Assembly: GCA_022763185.1 (NCBI GenBank)
Contig: JALEGL010000008.1
Location: 1 to 64,000 of the forward strand
Source of the DNA: a bacterium
Lineage (GTDB): Bacteria; Bdellovibrionota_G; JALEGL01
DNA: 64,000 nucleotides
Direction of reading: 5' to 3'
Shown here: positions 46,319-63,183 of the stretch, in pieces
Layout: each line of letters opens with the position of its first letter
Position numbering within the stretch: position 1 is the first letter of the stretch
Made by a program: the position numbers and the translations under genes
The notes under the pieces: generated by a model
What the model was told of the DNA's origin: nothing
Databases searched by the model: none
Seen by the model: only the letters and a program-made list of their open reading frames with translations

Positions 46319-48673
46319 ATGGCACAAGTATTGAAAAAACACAATGAAGCGCTTGAAGTGCAACCTGAACAATGTTTGCATTGTGAATTGCCTATTCCAA
46401 GGAGCATACAGTTAAAAAAGAGCCAGGAGTATCGTTTTTGTTGTACAGGTTGTGAGCATGTGTATGGCTTGATTCATGAATTAGGGTTAAAAAACTTTTA
46501 CCAACTCAAAGATGCGGACTTTAATCCTTTTGTAAAAGATGATTTGCGTAAAAATAATTTAGAAGGTTTTGAAACATTTTACGCAGAACACAAACAGAGA
46601 CTGATTTTTCATGTAGAAGGTATCCAGTGCTCAGCCTGTGTTTGGTTGATAAAAAAAGTAGCTAAAAAACATGATTTAAAAGTTAATGTTAATACCGTCG
46701 CTTCAAGCATTCATATCATTAATCAGACCCCTGATTTTGAAAAAACCAAAGAATTTTTAAAAACCATTCAATCTTTAGGCTATAATGTTTCGTTTGAAGA
46801 AAAAGTTACGCATAAAAATAGAGGACTGTTGATTCGTTTAGGTGTTTGTACGCTGCTTGCGATAAACATCATGGGACTGAATTTTGCCATTTATACCGGG
46901 CTAAATAAACAAGACGGACTATTGTATGATTTTGTGCAAGCTTTAATTATGGGCTTTGCAACGGTTTCATTTTTTGTTGGAGGGAGTTATTTTTTTAAAA
47001 AAACCTTCCGTGCAATAAAAAATAAAATTTTTCATTTTGATATCCCTATTACTTTGGGCATTGTACTTTCCTTTTTTGGCTCTTGGGCAGCATTTTTTTT
47101 GGGTTATGCAGAAAAAACATATTTTGATAGCATGAGTGTGTTTATAGCGTTGATGTTATTGGGACGGTTTTTACAAGAGCGTTGGTTAGAGAAAAGTAGA
47201 GCAAGTATATTAAATTCAGTTAATTTTAAAGGCTTGAAAGTTTTAAAATTATTATCCGACAAGACTTTAGATAGCATTGACTTTTCTGAGGTTAAAAAAG
47301 GAGACAAACTGGTTTTAAGATCAGGGGATATCGTTCCTACAGAAAGTAAAGTCATTGATCCGAATCTTTTAGAGTTTGATTACCAGTGGATTAGTGGTGA
47401 AAGTGATGTGATTCATCAATCAAAAGGTGATGTGGTTTGTGCTGGAGCAAGATACATTGGCTTACAGATGATCCATTTAGAAAGTTTGGAAAACTTTGAA
47501 AACTCCAGATTAAAAACGTTATCATCTACAGTCAGTCAATCCGAATATGGTGGAGAAATTAGTTCTTTAGATTTTTCCAAGTACTACACTCTTTTTGTTT
47601 TGCTATTGCTCACACTATCTTTTAGCTACAATATAATGAATAATGGCTTTGAACAGGCTTTTTTATCTGTTGTAACCATCAGTGTCATCACTTGTCCTTG
47701 TGCAATTGGGATAACTTTGCCTATTGTACAGTTTATTTTACAGCAAAAGCTTTTTAGTAAAGGGGTGTACATACAAAATGGTCAAACATTGAGTGCAATC
47801 GCAAAAATAACGGCGATCGTATTTGATAAAACCGGGACGCTCACTTTTTTAAATAAAAAAATCAGTAAAAGTCCATCATATCATCAACTAGCCAATGAAG
47901 AAAAAACAGTGTTGTTTAGTGCAGTTGCGCAAAGCAAACATCCGTTTAGTCAGCAGATTTTTAATCGTTTGCTAGAAGAGGGATTAACTTTATTGGATCT
48001 TGAAGTGACAGAGAAAATTGGTGAAGGGCTATTTTTTACTTTTAAAGGGCAACACTACTATCTAGGAAAAGACAAAACCAGTGATGAACCTTTGGTTGTG
48101 TTTATGAAAAATCAAAAAAAGCTTTGTGATTTTAAGTTCAGTGAAGTTTTACTTAAAGATAGTGAAGCTGTCATTAAAGACTTAAAACAAACTAATAAAC
48201 TGTACCTTCTTAGTGGAGACAAAAAAGCAGCGGTGTTAAAGGTTGCAAAAAAACTTCATATCAATGAAGAAAATGTTCGATATGAATGCTTACCGCAAGA
48301 AAAGCTAGACTGGGTAAGAAAAAGGTTAAGTCAGGAAAAAACCTTGTATTTAGGGGATGGTCTCAATGATCTTGAAGCCATGCAAGCGGCATATATTTCT
48401 GGCGCAAGTTTGTCACAAAGCTTGGTGGCTGCAAGCAGTGCAAGTTTCAGCTTTAAACCTTTTTCATTATTGTGGCTAAAAGATTTTTTTGAATGTGGAA
48501 AAGTATGGAAAAAATTGGTTTATTTTAATTATAGTTTAGCTTTGGTGTATAACGTGTTGGTGGCAGGGTTAGCTACAGTAGGATGGATAGGACCTTTAGA
48601 GGCGGCAATCATCATGCCCGCTTTTTCAATTGCAGTCTTGGTGATTTCATCCAAACAAATTAAAAAAACCTGA
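46319..48673 (+). CDS. ccoI: Copper-translocating P-type ATPase CcoI (FixI)
   Basis: A 784-residue P1B-type ATPase that supplies copper for cbb3 oxidase assembly. A cysteine-rich N-terminus (CLHCELPIP and CCTGCEHVY) precedes a heavy-metal-associated domain with CSAC. Then come the membrane motif CPC in VITCPCAIGITLP, the phosphorylation site DKTGTLTF, KHPFS and GDGLNDLEAM. The actuator loop TGE is SGE (WISGESDV). All key motifs are intact. The TGA stop at 48671 is 19 bases before ccoS, so ccoI-ccoS-ccoNO-ccoQ-ccoP is probably one transcript. Confidence 0.95.
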   Translation: MAQVLKKHNEALEVQPEQCLHCELPIPRSIQLKKSQEYRFCCTGCEHVYGLIHELGLKNFYQLKDADFNPFVKDDLRKNNLEGFETFYAEHKQRLIFHVEGIQCSACVWLIKKVAKKHDLKVNVNTVASSIHIINQTPDFEKTKEFLKTIQSLGYNVSFEEKVTHKNRGLLIRLGVCTLLAINIMGLNFAIYTGLNKQDGLLYDFVQALIMGFATVSFFVGGSYFFKKTFRAIKNKIFHFDIPITLGIVLSFFGSWAAFFLGYAEKTYFDSMSVFIALMLLGRFLQERWLEKSRASILNSVNFKGLKVLKLLSDKTLDSIDFSEVKKGDKLVLRSGDIVPTESKVIDPNLLEFDYQWISGESDVIHQSKGDVVCAGARYIGLQMIHLESLENFENSRLKTLSSTVSQSEYGGEISSLDFSKYYTLFVLLLLTLSFSYNIMNNGFEQAFLSVVTISVITCPCAIGITLPIVQFILQQKLFSKGVYIQNGQTLSAIAKITAIVFDKTGTLTFLNKKISKSPSYHQLANEEKTVLFSAVAQSKHPFSQQIFNRLLEEGLTLLDLEVTEKIGEGLFFTFKGQHYYLGKDKTSDEPLVVFMKNQKKLCDFKFSEVLLKDSEAVIKDLKQTNKLYLLSGDKKAAVLKVAKKLHINEENVRYECLPQEKLDWVRKRLSQEKTLYLGDGLNDLEAMQAAYISGASLSQSLVAASSASFSFKPFSLLWLKDFFECGKVWKKLVYFNYSLALVYNVLVAGLATVGWIGPLEAAIIMPAFSIAVLVISSKQIKKT

Positions 48674-48692: not shown

Positions 48693-48854
48693 ATGAATAT
48701 ATTGATATTACTCATCGCAATTGGCATAGCAATCATCTTACTGGCAGGATACTTTTTTGTATTCACTGTCAAAAATGCAGAGTACGAGCATATGGATGAT
48801 TCAGTGTGGTTACCATTTGATGATGAAGAAAGTGAGATAGAGCGTGAACAGTAA
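48693..48854 (+). CDS. ccoS: Cbb3 oxidase assembly protein CcoS
   Basis: A 53-residue protein with one N-terminal membrane helix (MNILILLIAIGIAIILLAGY), then FTVKNAEYEHMDD and an acidic tail. This is the typical CcoS (FixS) form: a single helix, then a short stretch with a conserved glutamine or glutamate and aspartates. It is needed for cofactor insertion into cbb3 oxidase. The stop overlaps the GTG start of ccoNO by 11 bases, which suggests translational coupling. Confidence 0.9.
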   Translation: MNILILLIAIGIAIILLAGYFFVFTVKNAEYEHMDDSVWLPFDDEESEIEREQ

Positions 48855-51123
48855 AGAGATTCATTTTGATGATTCGATTGTAAGACAGTTTTCTTGGGCG
48901 ACCATGATTTGGGGTGCTGTAGGGATGTTGGTTGGAGTGATTGTGGCTTTGCAAATCGCTTTTTGGCAAACCAATTTTGGACCGTATCTTAGCTTTGGTC
49001 GATTAAGACCTTTGCATACCAATGCTGTGATTTTTGCTTTTGTAGGTAATATGATGTTTGCTGGGATTTATTATTCAACGCAACGGCTGTTAAAAACACG
49101 GATGGCCAGTGATCTGTTGAGTAAGTTGCATTTTTGGGGTTGGCAACTGATCATTGTTTTAGCGGCAATAACTTTGCCCTTGGGCTTGAGCCAATCTAAA
49201 GAATATGCTGAATTAGAGTGGCCTATTGATATTTTGGTGGTGATTGTTTGGGTTATTTTTGCCATTAACTTTTTTTGGACCTTGGCCAAGCGTAGAGAAA
49301 AGCATATTTATGTGGCAATCTGGTTCTATATTGCATCTATCGTAACTGTAGCTATTTTGTATTTGGTTAACAATATGAGTTTGCCGGTTTCATTGACCAA
49401 GTCATACTCTGTTTTTTCAGGTGTACAGGATGCTTTGGTTCAGTGGTGGTATGGACACAATGCCGTAGCGTTTTTCTTGACCACACCTATTTTGGGTATC
49501 ATGTACTATTTTGTTCCAAAGTCTGTTGAGCGTCCTGTGTACTCGTATCGCTTATCCATTGTTCACTTTTGGGCCTTGGTTTTTATGTATATTTGGGCAG
49601 GACCGCATCACCTTTTATATTCAGCACTTCCTAGTTGGGCACAAAGTCTGGGTGTGATTTTTAGTGTGATGTTATGGGCACCCAGTTGGGGCGGAATGAT
49701 CAACGGTTTATTAACCTTGCGCGGGGCATGGGATAAACTCAGAACAGATCCAGTGGTCAAATTCTTTGCAGCAGCCATTACTTTTTATGGAATGGCAACC
49801 TTTGAAGGCCCCATGCTATCTATTAAATCATTCAATGGATTGGTTCACAGTACAGATTGGATTATTGGTCATGTGCATGGCGGCGCTTTGGGTTGGAATG
49901 GTTTTATGGCTGCAGGAATGTTGTATTGGTTAATCCCGCGTTTGTATGGCACCAAGCTTTGGTCAAAATCCTGGGCTAACTTTCATTTCTGGATTGGCTT
50001 ATTTGGTATTCTACTTTATGTAGCTGCAATGTGGGCCAGTGGCTTAACACAAGGTTTGATGTGGCGTGCACTTAATGCTGAAGGCACGTTATTGTACCCT
50101 AACTTTCTTGAGGCTATTACCAAAAGTCACTTGATGTACATGATGCGTTTGATCGGTGGTACTTTGTATTTGGTCACCTTTATCATGATGATCATTAACT
50201 TGTTTAAGACAGCCAGACAAGGGCAAGCCACTGACTATAAAATTCAAGTTGTTGAAGAAGAAAAAGCTGAAGAAGATTTGTCTTGGAAAAAAATAGTATT
50301 CAGTCCAATTTCTATGGTGGTCATTTTGGGCTTGGTGTTGATGTTTGGGTTGCTAACCAAAAGCTTATTACATTATTTTGTATGGATAGGTCTGGCGATT
50401 ATTTTTACCGTGGCAGCCATCTTTACCTTTCTCAGTGCAAGAAAAGAGAAAGTCAGTTGGCATAGAGCCTTAGAGGGAAAAGCCTTACTGTTTACGGTTT
50501 TTACCTTGATTGCGGTTTTAATTGGTGGCATGGCACAAATCATTCCTGCCGTTATGGTTGATAAGGCCGTACCCATGAAACATAAAGCATCTGTATATAA
50601 ACCCTTGGAATTGGTTGGGAGAGATATTTATATACGAGAAGGCTGTAATAACTGTCACACGCAAATGGTGCGTAGCTTACTGTCTGAAAGTATGCGTTAC
50701 GGTCATAAGTCTGAAGCTTGGGAGTTTGCCAATGACTTTCCTCATCTTTGGGGATCAAAGAGAACAGGTCCAGACTTGGCAAGGGTTGGAAAAAAATATC
50801 CAAACTTGTGGCATTATAAGCATATGATTAACCCAAGATCTACTTCACCAGGCTCTAATATGCCCAGCTACGAGTTTCTTGAGCACTCTAAAGCAGATTA
50901 TAGCAGCCTTACATATAAGATGCGTGCCTTAAAAAAACTTGGCGTTGATTACAGTCAAGACATGATCAATAATGCTGAACAGCTAGCGGCTGAACAAGCA
51001 CAGTCTATTGTAGATGACCTTCTTGCACAAGATGAGGTTGATACATCTGCCGATAGTGAGCTTGTGGCATTGATTGCATACTTACAAAAACTGGGTGTCG
51101 ATCGCAAAAACATAAAGGAGTAA
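48844..51123 (+). CDS. ccoNO: Cbb3 cytochrome oxidase, fused subunits I and II (CcoNO)
   Basis: A 759-residue fusion. Residues 1-470 form the CcoN heme-copper subunit, with helices carrying HTNAVIFAFVGNMM (heme ligand), WWYGHNAVAFF and GPHHLLYSALP (copper B ligands), and HVHGGALGWNGF (heme b ligands). A linker follows, then membrane helices, then CcoO from about 560 with the heme c site REGCNNCHTQMVR and a Met ligand in NMPSYEF. It reduces O2 at high affinity and pumps protons. Proteobacteria usually encode CcoN and CcoO separately; fusions are known in Bacteroidota and Bdellovibrio-like groups. Start GTG 48844. Confidence 0.95.
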   Translation: MNSKEIHFDDSIVRQFSWATMIWGAVGMLVGVIVALQIAFWQTNFGPYLSFGRLRPLHTNAVIFAFVGNMMFAGIYYSTQRLLKTRMASDLLSKLHFWGWQLIIVLAAITLPLGLSQSKEYAELEWPIDILVVIVWVIFAINFFWTLAKRREKHIYVAIWFYIASIVTVAILYLVNNMSLPVSLTKSYSVFSGVQDALVQWWYGHNAVAFFLTTPILGIMYYFVPKSVERPVYSYRLSIVHFWALVFMYIWAGPHHLLYSALPSWAQSLGVIFSVMLWAPSWGGMINGLLTLRGAWDKLRTDPVVKFFAAAITFYGMATFEGPMLSIKSFNGLVHSTDWIIGHVHGGALGWNGFMAAGMLYWLIPRLYGTKLWSKSWANFHFWIGLFGILLYVAAMWASGLTQGLMWRALNAEGTLLYPNFLEAITKSHLMYMMRLIGGTLYLVTFIMMIINLFKTARQGQATDYKIQVVEEEKAEEDLSWKKIVFSPISMVVILGLVLMFGLLTKSLLHYFVWIGLAIIFTVAAIFTFLSARKEKVSWHRALEGKALLFTVFTLIAVLIGGMAQIIPAVMVDKAVPMKHKASVYKPLELVGRDIYIREGCNNCHTQMVRSLLSESMRYGHKSEAWEFANDFPHLWGSKRTGPDLARVGKKYPNLWHYKHMINPRSTSPGSNMPSYEFLEHSKADYSSLTYKMRALKKLGVDYSQDMINNAEQLAAEQAQSIVDDLLAQDEVDTSADSELVALIAYLQKLGVDRKNIKE

Positions 51124-51908: not shown

Positions 51909-53282
51909 ATGCAATCGCCAGAATATACACATAAATCATCTATTCAAAAAGATGGGAGTAGACCTAAAATAAGGTTGGCGGATGTTAAAGGTTTTTTTAC
52001 CCGATTTAAAAATAAAACCTTTACACTTATCATTATTATTTTTTTTGTTATTCCATTGCTTAAGTTTGGTGGAGAACGCTTCTTGCTTTTGCAAGTTGAT
52101 CAACGGGTTTTCAATATTGCAGGCTTTGTTTTTAATGCCCAAGACGTATATCTGATCTTTTTTATTGTTACCGGTTTAGCCTTTTCTTTGTTTTTTATTA
52201 CGGCTCTGTTTGGACGTGTCTGGTGTGGATACCTATGTCCACAAACCGTTATTTTAGAAGGCGTTTATAGAAAAATTGAGCGTTGGATAGAAGGTCCAAA
52301 AAACCAGCAACTTATTTTGGAAAAGTCAGCTTGGAATAAAGAAAAAATAATGAAGAAGGGGCTCAAATACTTTTTGTATGCTTTGGTTTCTTTGTTATTT
52401 GCTTTTGGTTTTATTTCTTACTTTGTTCCGCACAGTTATTATATAGATCTATGGCAGCATGGGCCCTCAACCCATCCAAATGTGTTTTTGTGGGGATTAA
52501 TTTTAAGCTTCATTTTTTATGGTAACTTTGCTTGGTTCAGAGAGCAGCTTTGCTTAATCATTTGTCCTTATGGTCGATTACAGTCAGCGCTCACCGATGA
52601 TGATACGTTTGTAATTGGTTACGATGAAAAAAGAGGAGAACCTAGAGGAAAGCTAAAAGATGAAAATAGAGGCGCCTGCATAGACTGTGGTCGATGTGTT
52701 GTTGTTTGCCCTACCGGAATAGATATACGTCAAGGTATGCAAATGGAGTGCATAGGCTGTGCAAATTGTATTGATGCTTGTGATGAAATCATGGAAAAAA
52801 CCAATCAACCCAAAGGGCTTATTCGTTACGATTCCTACAATGGTTTTAATGGTGAAAAAACAAAGCTACTGCGACCAAGAATCTACGTTTATATGGTCCT
52901 TTTACTTATTGGTTTTTTAGTGTTTTCTGTTTTTTTAAGAAATCGGCAAAATTTTGAGGCCAATTTATTAAGGTTGAGTGATAGACCATACATACTCGAA
53001 GCCGGTCAAATTAGAAATGCTTTTGAAATTCACATAATTAATAAATCTGCACAAGAACAACGTTACACTATTGATGTTGAGTCAGAGCAAAAACAACTTG
53101 AAAGTATCATGCCTTTTAAATCAATTGTCCTAAAAAAGAATGAAGATAAGCGTATACCTCTGTTTTTGGTTTTAAATAAAGATATGTACAAGAAAGAGTT
53201 TGAAGTGAATGTTAAAATACATGTTGACGAGAATGAAAAAAAAGTTCCCATAAAGTTTTTAGGGCCTAATACCTTAAAATAA
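51909..53282 (+). CDS. ccoG: Cbb3 oxidase accessory protein CcoG (FixG)
   Basis: A 457-residue inner-membrane iron-sulfur protein. Helices bracket WCGYLCPQTVILEGVYRKIE and two ferredoxin-like cysteine clusters (CIDCGRCVVVCPTGIDIRQG and CIGCANCIDACDE). The C-terminal FixG Ig-like periplasmic domain begins near residue 355. CcoG reduces Cu(II) to Cu(I) for oxidase assembly in studied bacteria. It starts 51 bases after ccoP, so it is either in the operon or has its own weak promoter. No ccoH gene follows it. Confidence 0.95.
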   Translation: MQSPEYTHKSSIQKDGSRPKIRLADVKGFFTRFKNKTFTLIIIIFFVIPLLKFGGERFLLLQVDQRVFNIAGFVFNAQDVYLIFFIVTGLAFSLFFITALFGRVWCGYLCPQTVILEGVYRKIERWIEGPKNQQLILEKSAWNKEKIMKKGLKYFLYALVSLLFAFGFISYFVPHSYYIDLWQHGPSTHPNVFLWGLILSFIFYGNFAWFREQLCLIICPYGRLQSALTDDDTFVIGYDEKRGEPRGKLKDENRGACIDCGRCVVVCPTGIDIRQGMQMECIGCANCIDACDEIMEKTNQPKGLIRYDSYNGFNGEKTKLLRPRIYVYMVLLLIGFLVFSVFLRNRQNFEANLLRLSDRPYILEAGQIRNAFEIHIINKSAQEQRYTIDVESEQKQLESIMPFKSIVLKKNEDKRIPLFLVLNKDMYKKEFEVNVKIHVDENEKKVPIKFLGPNTLK

Positions 53283-59955: not shown

Positions 59956-60516
59956 CTATTTTTTTAGGTGTAATAGCCAGAGAATAGGAGCGTTGTTTTT
60001 CTTTATATCGTGATGCTCAGTATAAATATAGAGTGTTTGCTGATTGATCCAGCTCTCTATGCTTTCTTTTTCCTCTTTCCCTTGTCTATGTCCTGGATAC
60101 GCTAAAACTGAAACTATACCACCTGGCTTGAGTAATTGTGAACATTGATCCAATGCCAGTAGAGTAGTTTTTTCTTGGGTGCAAATAGTTTTATTTTGGC
60201 TTCCAGGTAGGTAACCTAAATTAAACATAATAAGATCTATTTTTTTGTAAAAGCGTTTAGGAATGAAGGCAGTCATTTTTGAATGTGAAGCTTGAAAAAA
60301 ACTGAGCTGTTTTTTGTTTAAGTCGTGAGCACATTTTTTTTGTGTTGTTAATATTGCTTGTTGTTGGACGTCAAAGGCAAAGACATGCCCTTGTGCTTGA
60401 GTATTTTTCAATAAAAAAGCTGTGTCATGCCCATTACCGCACGTCGCATCAATACTGTACAAGAAAATTTTTTGATGTTTAATAATTTCTTGATGACACA
60501 TTTGGGTTAGTGACAT
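59956..60516 (-). CDS. mnmM: tRNA mnm5s2U methyltransferase MnmM-like (YtqB family)
   Basis: A 186-residue class I methyltransferase. DATCGNGHDTAFLL is the SAM loop of the PF06962 (rRNA_methylase, YtqB) family. IMFNLGYLPGSQNKTICTQE is its diagnostic catalytic stretch, and GGIVSVLAYPGHRQGKEE follows. MnmM adds the methyl group to nm5s2U34 to give mnm5s2U in some tRNAs. It is the last gene of a minus-strand operon, one base after a DAO-type oxidoreductase, in agreement with a shared pathway. Family identification is strong; the substrate is by homology. Confidence 0.85.
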   Translation of the reverse strand: MSLTQMCHQEIIKHQKIFLYSIDATCGNGHDTAFLLKNTQAQGHVFAFDVQQQAILTTQKKCAHDLNKKQLSFFQASHSKMTAFIPKRFYKKIDLIMFNLGYLPGSQNKTICTQEKTTLLALDQCSQLLKPGGIVSVLAYPGHRQGKEEKESIESWINQQTLYIYTEHHDIKKNNAPILWLLHLKK

Positions 60517-60517
60517 T

Positions 60518-61507
60518 TTAAGAGCGCCTTGTTTTATTTAAAGAGTTGATGAAACTATGTGCATGATGAGGAATTTCCAAGCAACCTTTACTGCCAAAGC
60601 CATTGAATAGCCAAAGTCTTGAATCTTGAGGAGAAGTTTGAATCAGTACTTGTCTGTTGACAGTTGTTGGCCTAATGCCCGTATAATGATTTTTTAACGT
60701 AAAGACTTTTTTGCTGATTGGGAGCGGGGCTTTAGAAGTGAACAAGGCATACTCTTTTTCTGTATTCGCTTGATATTGAATACCCCAGTGATAACTTGCA
60801 CCTAAATAAAAGTGCTGATCAATGTTAAAGTTAGGTACTAACCAGTGCCCCCAGTTATAGAAAGATTTTTCTAAACCTTGTATTTCAACATTCATGATAC
60901 TGCCTTTTGAAAGCTGAAAAAGATCATGTTGAAAAAATGGATTGTATATATTTTGGTAGCCTTCACAAAAAATGAGTTGATAAAATGAACTGTTTTTGTA
61001 GATAAGGTTATTTTTTTTGAATTGAAGTTGCGTGTAGTCAAATTGTGCACTTTCAAAATCAGAATTTTTTTTGAAATAATTTTTACTTAGCTTTAAAAAA
61101 TTTCTTACATTTACACTTGCAGTATCGTGAATATAAATCTTATCTTTTGTATGAAATTGAAAAGACTGAGGAAACTGTAGTTGTCTTTTTAAATAATAGT
61201 CATATTGCTCTGAGGAAGATAAAAACCGGTGTTGTATGATAGGATGAAATAAACGAGTATTTAATTTTTTTTCTATTGCTTGGTAAAAATTTTTTGCCTT
61301 TAAAAATTTTTCAAAAAAATTATCCGTTAGTTTTAATCTTGGTCCAGTAAAGGGATTGATGATGCCCGCTGAAACAATTGAAGAAGAACCTCTGTGTTCA
61401 TGGTCAATGATTTTAAGTGTATAACCTTCTTGAATCAGGGTGTGCGCTAAGATGCTCCCTGCTAGCCCCTGACCTACAATTAAGAAATCATAGGTTTTTT
61501 GCTTCAT
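60518..61507 (-). CDS. FAD-dependent DAO-family oxidoreductase, MnmC C-terminal-like
   Basis: A 329-residue FAD enzyme. FLIVGQGLAGSILAHTLIQ binds FAD, SAGIINPFTGPRLKL (residues 47-61) resembles the MnmC oxidoreductase domain, and GIRPTTVNRQVLI plus LWLFNGFGSKGCLEIP ends the fold. In E. coli MnmC this domain removes the carboxymethyl group of cmnm5s2U to give nm5s2U. Here it is separate and followed by mnmM, which would do the next methylation step. It starts with an ATGA overlap with the deaminase gene upstream. Function inferred from family and neighbour. Confidence 0.75.
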   Translation of the reverse strand: MKQKTYDFLIVGQGLAGSILAHTLIQEGYTLKIIDHEHRGSSSIVSAGIINPFTGPRLKLTDNFFEKFLKAKNFYQAIEKKLNTRLFHPIIQHRFLSSSEQYDYYLKRQLQFPQSFQFHTKDKIYIHDTASVNVRNFLKLSKNYFKKNSDFESAQFDYTQLQFKKNNLIYKNSSFYQLIFCEGYQNIYNPFFQHDLFQLSKGSIMNVEIQGLEKSFYNWGHWLVPNFNIDQHFYLGASYHWGIQYQANTEKEYALFTSKAPLPISKKVFTLKNHYTGIRPTTVNRQVLIQTSPQDSRLWLFNGFGSKGCLEIPHHAHSFINSLNKTRRS

Positions 61508-62022
61508 GATGAAAGAGGTGAAAAATTAATTTGATGAACACCGTGTTCAAAGCGATTGAGCAGCTGTAAGTATTGCGCATGTAAATCTGGATCTTGCGCT
61601 TTCCAAGTGTCTTGAATAGACCAGGCTTCAATGTAGATGATTTTAGAGATTTTTGCCTGCAGCATGGCTTTGCTACAATTAAAGCAAGGTTGCATGGTGG
61701 TGTACATGGTGCTGTTTTCTGTTTTGATACCAAAACGTGCAGCACTTAAAATAGCATTTTGCTCAGCATGAACACATATACAAATATCATAAGCTGTTCC
61801 AGAAGGGTAAGCCCCTCTTTTATTGCAACGTACACAACCACCATCCAAACAGTTTAGAGTGCCTTCAGCTGTCCCATTATAACCAGTTGAGATGATTCGA
61901 TTGTCTACAACTAAAACTGCACCCACTTGACTGCCTTTACAGTTGGCTTTGGCTTTAACTGCCAGAGCTATATTGAGATAATATTCATCCTGAGTCATAA
62001 GCGCTTTTTTACCATTGATCAT
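61504..62022 (-). CDS. Deoxycytidylate deaminase (ComEB-like)
   Basis: A cytidine deaminase superfamily protein of about 172 residues. The zinc site is CVHAEQNAI and PCFNCSKAML, and CLDGGCVRCNKRG is the extra cysteine loop typical of dCMP deaminases. It converts dCMP to dUMP for thymidylate synthesis. A TTG at 62034 is further upstream; ATG 62022 and ATG 61998 (MTQDEYYLN) are both possible, and no ribosome site clearly decides. It heads the operon with the oxidoreductase and mnmM, a pairing with no evident metabolic link except nucleotides. Confidence 0.85.
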   Translation of the reverse strand: MINGKKALMTQDEYYLNIALAVKAKANCKGSQVGAVLVVDNRIISTGYNGTAEGTLNCLDGGCVRCNKRGAYPSGTAYDICICVHAEQNAILSAARFGIKTENSTMYTTMQPCFNCSKAMLQAKISKIIYIEAWSIQDTWKAQDPDLHAQYLQLLNRFEHGVHQINFSPLSS

Positions 62023-62082: not shown

Positions 62083-63183
62083 ATGGAGCCCTTTAAAAAT
62101 ATATATAACTCAAACAGTATAGCAGACCTTGCACACGCTATTTATAGCATTGAGCAAGGTTTTAAGAAAAAAAGTTTTATCAATAAATCCATGTCCAATC
62201 TGGAGCAATTAGAAATGAAGCAACGTGTTGTGCAAATAGCACAAGCTTTAGAAGATTGTTTGCCTGGCAACTACAAGCAAAAACTTACGGCATTGTTAAA
62301 AAGTGTTAAGTCAGATAAAAATCCTTCAGGCGTAGAGGGTTTTTTATTATGGCCATACACTTATTTTATAGAATGCTATGGTATGGATGACTTTGAAAGC
62401 TCGATGCATGCTTTGTATGTCATCACACAGCAGTTTACCAGTGAATTTGGTGTAAGACCTTTCTTAGAGCACTATCCAGATAAAGTTTATGGTTTATTTA
62501 AACAATGGGTACATGATCCAAATGAACATGTGAGACGTTGGGTCAGTGAAGGTTTAAGGCCTAATCTTCCCTGGGGAATGAAGATTTCACATATTAAGAA
62601 AAATTTAAAAAAAAATATAAGGCTTATTTCTTTACTTAAAGATGATGCATCACTTTATGTCAGAAAAAGTGTGGCCAATCATTTAAACGATATTGCGGCT
62701 TTGGATTCACAACTGCTCTTAGATACAGTTGAGAAGTGGCCTTTAAATAAAGATTACAGAAAAGTTTTAGTAAAAAATGCTTTGAGAAATCTTATTAAGC
62801 AGGGTAATCCAAGGGCTTTGAAAATATTAGGCTTTGATCCAAAAGCAAAAATCAAACTTAATAAATTAAATCTATCAAAAAAGAAAATCAGAGAAGGTGA
62901 GAGTCTGGTTATAAGCTTTGAACTGATTAATGAAAGCAACACTCAACAGGCACTGATGGTTGATTATGTCTTGTATTACATGAAAAAAAATGGAGAGCTT
63001 TCTCCCAAAGTTTTTAAACTTAAGCAACTTCAATTGGCCAAAGATCAAAGGCTTGCATTGGCTAAAAAGCATACTTTTAAATTGGTTACAACCCGAAGAC
63101 ATTATTCGGGAAAGCATAAGATTGAGATTCAAGTGAATGGACAGAGAAAAGGATTTGTAGACTTCATCTTGAGTGTAGAATAG
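62083..63183 (+). CDS. AlkC-like DNA alkylation repair protein with Ig-like C-terminal domain
   Basis: A 366-residue protein with an all-helical N-terminal two-thirds (residues 1-250) in which DPNEHVRRWVSEGLRPNLPWG is the AlkC signature. HEAT-like repeats continue with VRKSVANHLNDIA. The C-terminal third (about 268-366) is beta-rich, like the immunoglobulin-like domain of AlkC, which grips DNA. AlkC enzymes excise 3-methyladenine-type bases. Combined with the AlkD-like gene at 36213, the cell has two alkyl-base glycosylases of the HLR family. Divergent from the dCMP deaminase operon. Confidence 0.9.
   Translation: MEPFKNIYNSNSIADLAHAIYSIEQGFKKKSFINKSMSNLEQLEMKQRVVQIAQALEDCLPGNYKQKLTALLKSVKSDKNPSGVEGFLLWPYTYFIECYGMDDFESSMHALYVITQQFTSEFGVRPFLEHYPDKVYGLFKQWVHDPNEHVRRWVSEGLRPNLPWGMKISHIKKNLKKNIRLISLLKDDASLYVRKSVANHLNDIAALDSQLLLDTVEKWPLNKDYRKVLVKNALRNLIKQGNPRALKILGFDPKAKIKLNKLNLSKKKIREGESLVISFELINESNTQQALMVDYVLYYMKKNGELSPKVFKLKQLQLAKDQRLALAKKHTFKLVTTRRHYSGKHKIEIQVNGQRKGFVDFILSVE

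Follow-up and report, generated by a model that had tools for sequence, protein, structure and literature searches.

The MnmC oxidase domain, MnmC(o), uses flavin to oxidise cmnm5U at its C-alpha–N bond, and hydrolysis of the resulting imine releases nm5U (PMC3648344). MnmM is a methylase of the same wobble position that was discovered without a known oxidase partner and is reported to be mutually exclusive with MnmC. It can use nm5U made directly by MnmE and MnmG (MnmEG) with ammonium (PMC9976899). The same study considers that an MnmC(o)-like enzyme likely exists in organisms with orphan methylases. A table in a later source cites MnmL for the oxidase step (PMC12548931).

The locus described here lies at positions 59956–62022 of the window, which is the whole stretch of 64,000 nucleotides that was analysed. 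It consists of three co-directional, tightly packed genes on the minus strand:

62022 (ATG) to 61504, minus strand: deaminase-family gene, cytidine/deoxycytidylate-deaminase family (PF00383)
60518 to 61507, minus strand: FAD gene, proposed cmnm5(s2)U34 oxidase, 329 aa, DAO family (PF01266)
59956 to 60516, minus strand: mnmM, predicted tRNA nm5(s2)U34 methyltransferase, 186 aa (NF053511 and PF06962)

The deaminase and FAD genes overlap by 4 bp (ATGA), and one base separates the FAD stop codon from the mnmM start codon (TAA-A-ATG). The preliminary description had proposed an operon of deaminase, FAD gene and mnmM, with an MnmM-like gene one base away, and both points are confirmed by the overlap, the gap, the shared strand and the MnmM profile score given below. 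A 366-aa protein without a Pfam or NCBIfam match is encoded at 62083–63183, divergent from the operon.

The FAD enzyme quite probably converts cmnm5(s2)U34 to nm5(s2)U34, which MnmM would turn into mnm5(s2)U34. It would be an MnmC(o)-like enzyme from a separate clade and an alternative to the MnmL of Bacilli. In the proposed sequence, MnmE and MnmG would make cmnm5(s2)U34, and the FAD protein would oxidise the glycine part of this nucleoside at the C-alpha–N bond. Hydrolysis would then free glyoxylate and leave nm5(s2)U34 for methylation by the MnmM of the same operon. The oxidation of cmnm5(s2)U34 is proposed because the fold, the glycine-site arginine and the partner are all present; for the FAD protein, the substrate, the reaction and possible tRNA binding are all predicted.

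The methylase is MnmM, with 175.3 bits against NF053511 (curated cut-off 135). Over most of its length, the product matches the YtqB/MnmM structures 8h0s and 4pon and resembles the structurally solved enzymes of B. subtilis and S. aureus. Mutation of seven residues (K11, D34, N101, Y104, K110, Y141, H144) nearly abolishes the activity of B. subtilis MnmM (PMC9976899), and all but the first are kept in the window protein. The K11 position is occupied by histidine, likewise in most of the 15 aligned MnmMs, including those linked to MnmL. The window MnmM is a predicted nm5(s2)U34 methylase. The MnmM tree is poorly resolved, contains many long branches, and is too weak to show co-inheritance.

The window genome is a 2.25 Mb assembly, 97% complete. 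MnmE (386 bits) and MnmG (887 bits) are both above cut-off and lie near each other. No MnmC(o) above cut-off was found in the genome-wide profile search, in which the best MnmC_Cterm score is 28.5 bits (cut-off 174). The MnmC methylase domain MnmC(m) (PF05430) is absent from this genome, and the best TIGR01212 score is 27 bits against a cut-off of 180, so that a radical-SAM MnmL partner was not found either; such absence calls are weaker in MAGs than in complete genomes. Since MnmEG can make cmnm5(s2)U34 and MnmM can finish the modification, the intermediate oxidase step has no gene to account for it other than the FAD gene. The preliminary description had called for a search of the genome for mnmE, mnmG and mnmC, and the first two are present with no intact mnmC. 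Its claim that an oxidase followed by MnmM replaces the two halves of MnmC is supported by gene content (MnmC and MnmL missing, MnmE and MnmG present, a recurring gene pair), while the enzymatic steps are predictions.

The mnmE–mnmG region (locus L042, G000:C15:222500-230000) contains three perfect parS-like sites (TGTTTCACGTGAAACA) at positions 2124, 4231 and 4456. These are within coding sequence, are read as VSRET, and likely mark the origin region. A gene between mnmE and mnmG (L042:2116-2871) resembles the acetyltransferase half of GlmU-like enzymes. The host appears to be Gram-negative, judging from the Deltaproteobacteria label of an order-mate and the cbb3 oxidase cluster of the window. 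In this cluster, a single fusion protein combines cbb3 oxidase subunits I and II (48844–51123; NF011053, 1176 bits), and its gene is flanked by those for a P-type metal ATPase (46319–48673) and a FixG-like protein (51909–53282).

The FAD gene is directly upstream of mnmM in seven genomes, the window genome included. Four Ectothiorhodospiraceae MAGs (L025, L028, L029, L033) have it on the same strand as an MnmM of 166–180 bits, and none of the four has PF05430, MnmL or MnmC(o) above cut-off. The survey sample comprises 385 genomes, 11 with MnmM and six with a clear FAD-family member; a YurR-grouping protein of 109 bits (G055) is left out of the latter count. Three of the 11 MnmM genomes have the FAD gene directly upstream of mnmM, namely the window genome, G295 and G156 (L058 and L064 being the two loci besides the window). 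G295 looks like a planctomycete from its prepilin-like (DUF1559-type) neighbour gene, and its FAD and MnmM genes overlap. G158, of the same family, has the two genes about 131 kb apart (L063, L069). In three further MnmM genomes of the survey, the position directly upstream of mnmM is taken by MnmL (338–401 bits); the remaining four have no FAD gene anywhere and no MnmL adjoining mnmM. For the Gram-positive pairing mentioned in the preliminary description, the MnmM partner is the radical-SAM MnmL and not a flavoprotein.

Co-occurrence is strong: MnmM is present in 4 of the 6 genomes with a FAD-family member and in 7 of the remaining 379 (Fisher p 5e-6, uncorrected for kinship). The value is 5e-5 once the contig-cut genome and one of the same-family pair are removed, with no further phylogenetic correction. 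The contig-cut genome, G003 (Deltaproteobacteria MAG HKST-UBA01), is the only relative in the order of the window genome with a FAD gene. Its FAD gene is truncated to 192 aa by the end of the contig and G003 has yielded no MnmM, which makes it uninformative on linkage. Since the pair recurs in unrelated genomes, the pairing is well beyond chance.

The FAD protein has a DAO fold (PF01266), and its scores against named families are all low. It reaches 39.2 bits with ThiO (TIGR02352, cut-off 250.8) and 33.8 bits with MnmC_Cterm, the MnmC(o) model (TIGR03197, cut-off 174.2), values that give MnmC(o) no advantage over ThiO. It has no match among plasmid proteins. The species-genome scan contains 19 relatives, mostly from Bacteroidota; the others are from the four Ectothiorhodospiraceae MAGs, a UBP8 MAG, a Verrucomicrobia MAG and G003. 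The AlphaFold (AF2) model is of high confidence, with a mean pLDDT of 89.4. Its best Foldseek match is the iminodiacetate oxidase IdaA, followed by ThiO glycine oxidases, with MnmC lower yet strong. The matched enzymes act as oxidases on glycine or on N-substituted glycines, which is the chemistry needed. Fold cannot choose between MnmC(o) and ThiO, because the two are already strikingly alike (Kim and Almo, PMC3648344).

The equivalents of the E. coli MnmC active-site and FAD residues S304 (S/T), G518, R567 and G619 (PMC3648344) are kept in 20–21 of 21 family members and are S, G, R (R279) and G in the window protein; these FAD- and substrate-site residues are common to MnmC(o) and ThiO. Two further marks are present in MnmC(o) and absent from ThiO: an aromatic residue three positions past G518 (GATY), and a basic residue at R/K618 in the motif GS[RK]G. 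Each is found in 20 of 21 FAD members, L019 being the sole exception to both. Isoelectric points give no consistent separation of the family.

Two maximum-likelihood trees place the FAD family in one clade (100/99) and MnmC(o) in another (100/99), parted by long branches. ThiO groups elsewhere, in a third part of the tree that it shares with YurR and DadA, and the FAD family falls outside its clade. A constraint uniting the FAD family with ThiO is mildly rejected against the other rows (p-AU 0.036). By trees and profiles, the family is distinct from ThiO and from the MnmC(o) orthologues, and it forms a separate, well-supported clade of glycine-oxidase-like flavoproteins. The resemblance to the oxidoreductase half of MnmC noted in the preliminary description is valid for the superfamily and not for the orthologous family; the idea of a freed MnmC(o) domain is not borne out.

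If the FAD protein were instead a genuine but diverged orthologue of MnmC(o), with MnmM standing in for a lost methylase domain, this would account for the GATY and GS[RK]G motifs common to both groups. It would also fit the TIGR03197 matches, which cover most of the model and reach 97 bits in family members, and the unrooted tree, where the ThiO/YurR/DadA branch leaves both clades on one side. However, every member scores below the TIGR03197 cut-off, which no member exceeds in any genome checked, and the two clades are each monophyletic with long branches between them, the tree being unrooted. This origin is unlikely.

Still less expected is another pathway role for the FAD enzyme, on a different tRNA nucleoside or in the control of glycine or glyoxylate, with MnmM using nm5U from MnmE–MnmG and ammonium, the route that is documented for MnmM (PMC9976899). 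Most retrieved family members, from Bacteroidota, have neither MnmM nor a link to tRNA genes, and the neighbours of their FAD genes include no recurrent tRNA-modification partner. In contrast, the fold and the conserved arginine suit a glycine-like substrate, and the alternation of MnmL and the FAD gene in the slot directly upstream of mnmM suggests that the two do the same step.

It is very improbable that the FAD protein is a glycine oxidase of the ThiO type, serving thiamine synthesis and standing beside mnmM by chance: ThiO models slightly outscore MnmC models (39 vs 34 bits) and ThiO structures are strong fold matches, but the ThiO clade excludes the FAD family, GS[RK]G is absent from ThiO, the recurring neighbour is MnmM and not thi genes, and the reading is already contradicted by the lack of ThiG (PF05690) in the window genome, G156 and G075. 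The grouping with ThiO that the preliminary description had named as evidence against its own proposal does not occur.

The preferred assignment, oxidation of cmnm5(s2)U34 ahead of MnmM, applies to the paired genes, and its extension to the whole family is tentative. A stand-alone PF05430 methylase is present in 6 of the 15 non-Ectothiorhodospiraceae genomes retrieved; the other nine, contig-cut G003 included, have neither PF05430 nor MnmM above cut-off. Among Bacteroidota loci, L018, L022, L023, L026, L027 and L030 carry the FAD family with neither methylase detected. These nine genomes may mean that the family has a wider range of functions or that the MAGs are incomplete; where both methylases are missing, the modification may also stop at nm5(s2)U. 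It is possible, though doubtful, that the entire family is a third class of cmnm5(s2)U34 oxidase, serving MnmM in some phyla and a stand-alone MnmC(m) in Bacteroidota. If true, the family would provide the MnmC(o)-like enzyme whose existence PMC9976899 considers likely where methylases are orphans.

The deaminase contains a Zn-binding PF00383 domain. Among named models, ComEB/dCMP deaminase scores highest, with 92 bits where the cut-off is 219. It is likely a dCMP deaminase, an identity that is not proven because the ComEB score is under the cut-off. The flanking sequences retrieved for the other FAD loci contain no homologue of the deaminase. The linkage is probably incidental and the gene a passenger; as a component of the system, it is without support outside the window. 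Of the dCMP deaminase placed in the operon by the preliminary description, the adjacency stands and the identity is likely, while membership of a conserved unit is not seen.

The pairing predicts a flavin-dependent MnmM partner outside Bacilli that is distinct from MnmL, and it names a testable protein family. These comparisons predict that the FAD enzyme carries out the step as a third enzyme type, orthologous to neither MnmC(o) nor MnmL. At least three enzymes that are unrelated, or related only distantly, would then serve a single wobble-base step, and a DAO family of Bacteroidota that is so far uncharacterised would gain a function.

IdaA (PDB 6PXS), the best fold match, acts on an N-substituted glycine that is chemically like the cmnm5U side chain. 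It has about 17% identity to the FAD protein and is a metabolic enzyme with no known tRNA link. ThiO (TIGR02352; PDB 1NG3, 7CYX) oxidises the C–N bond of a glycine and resembles the FAD protein in fold and in the glycine-site arginine. It differs in its clade, in a C-terminal RNG/RHG where the family has S[RK]G, and in that the window genome is without ThiG. The MnmC(o) domain of E. coli, also MnmC1 (PDB 3AWI, 3PS9; C-terminal FAD domain), is similar to the FAD protein in its DAO fold, in the S304/G518/R567/G619 equivalents, in the GATY/GASY and GS[RK]G motifs, and in the predicted action on cmnm5(s2)U34. In contrast, the FAD protein is a free-standing protein of 329 aa in a separate clade, below the TIGR03197 cut-off, and is paired with MnmM, a methylase of a family other than MnmC(m). 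The MnmL (YtqA, TIGR01212) and MnmM (YtqB) genes of Bacilli are the closest in arrangement, with two genes, the same MnmM, a partner directly upstream and the same proposed step; MnmL is a radical-SAM enzyme, whereas the slot is held here by a flavoprotein.
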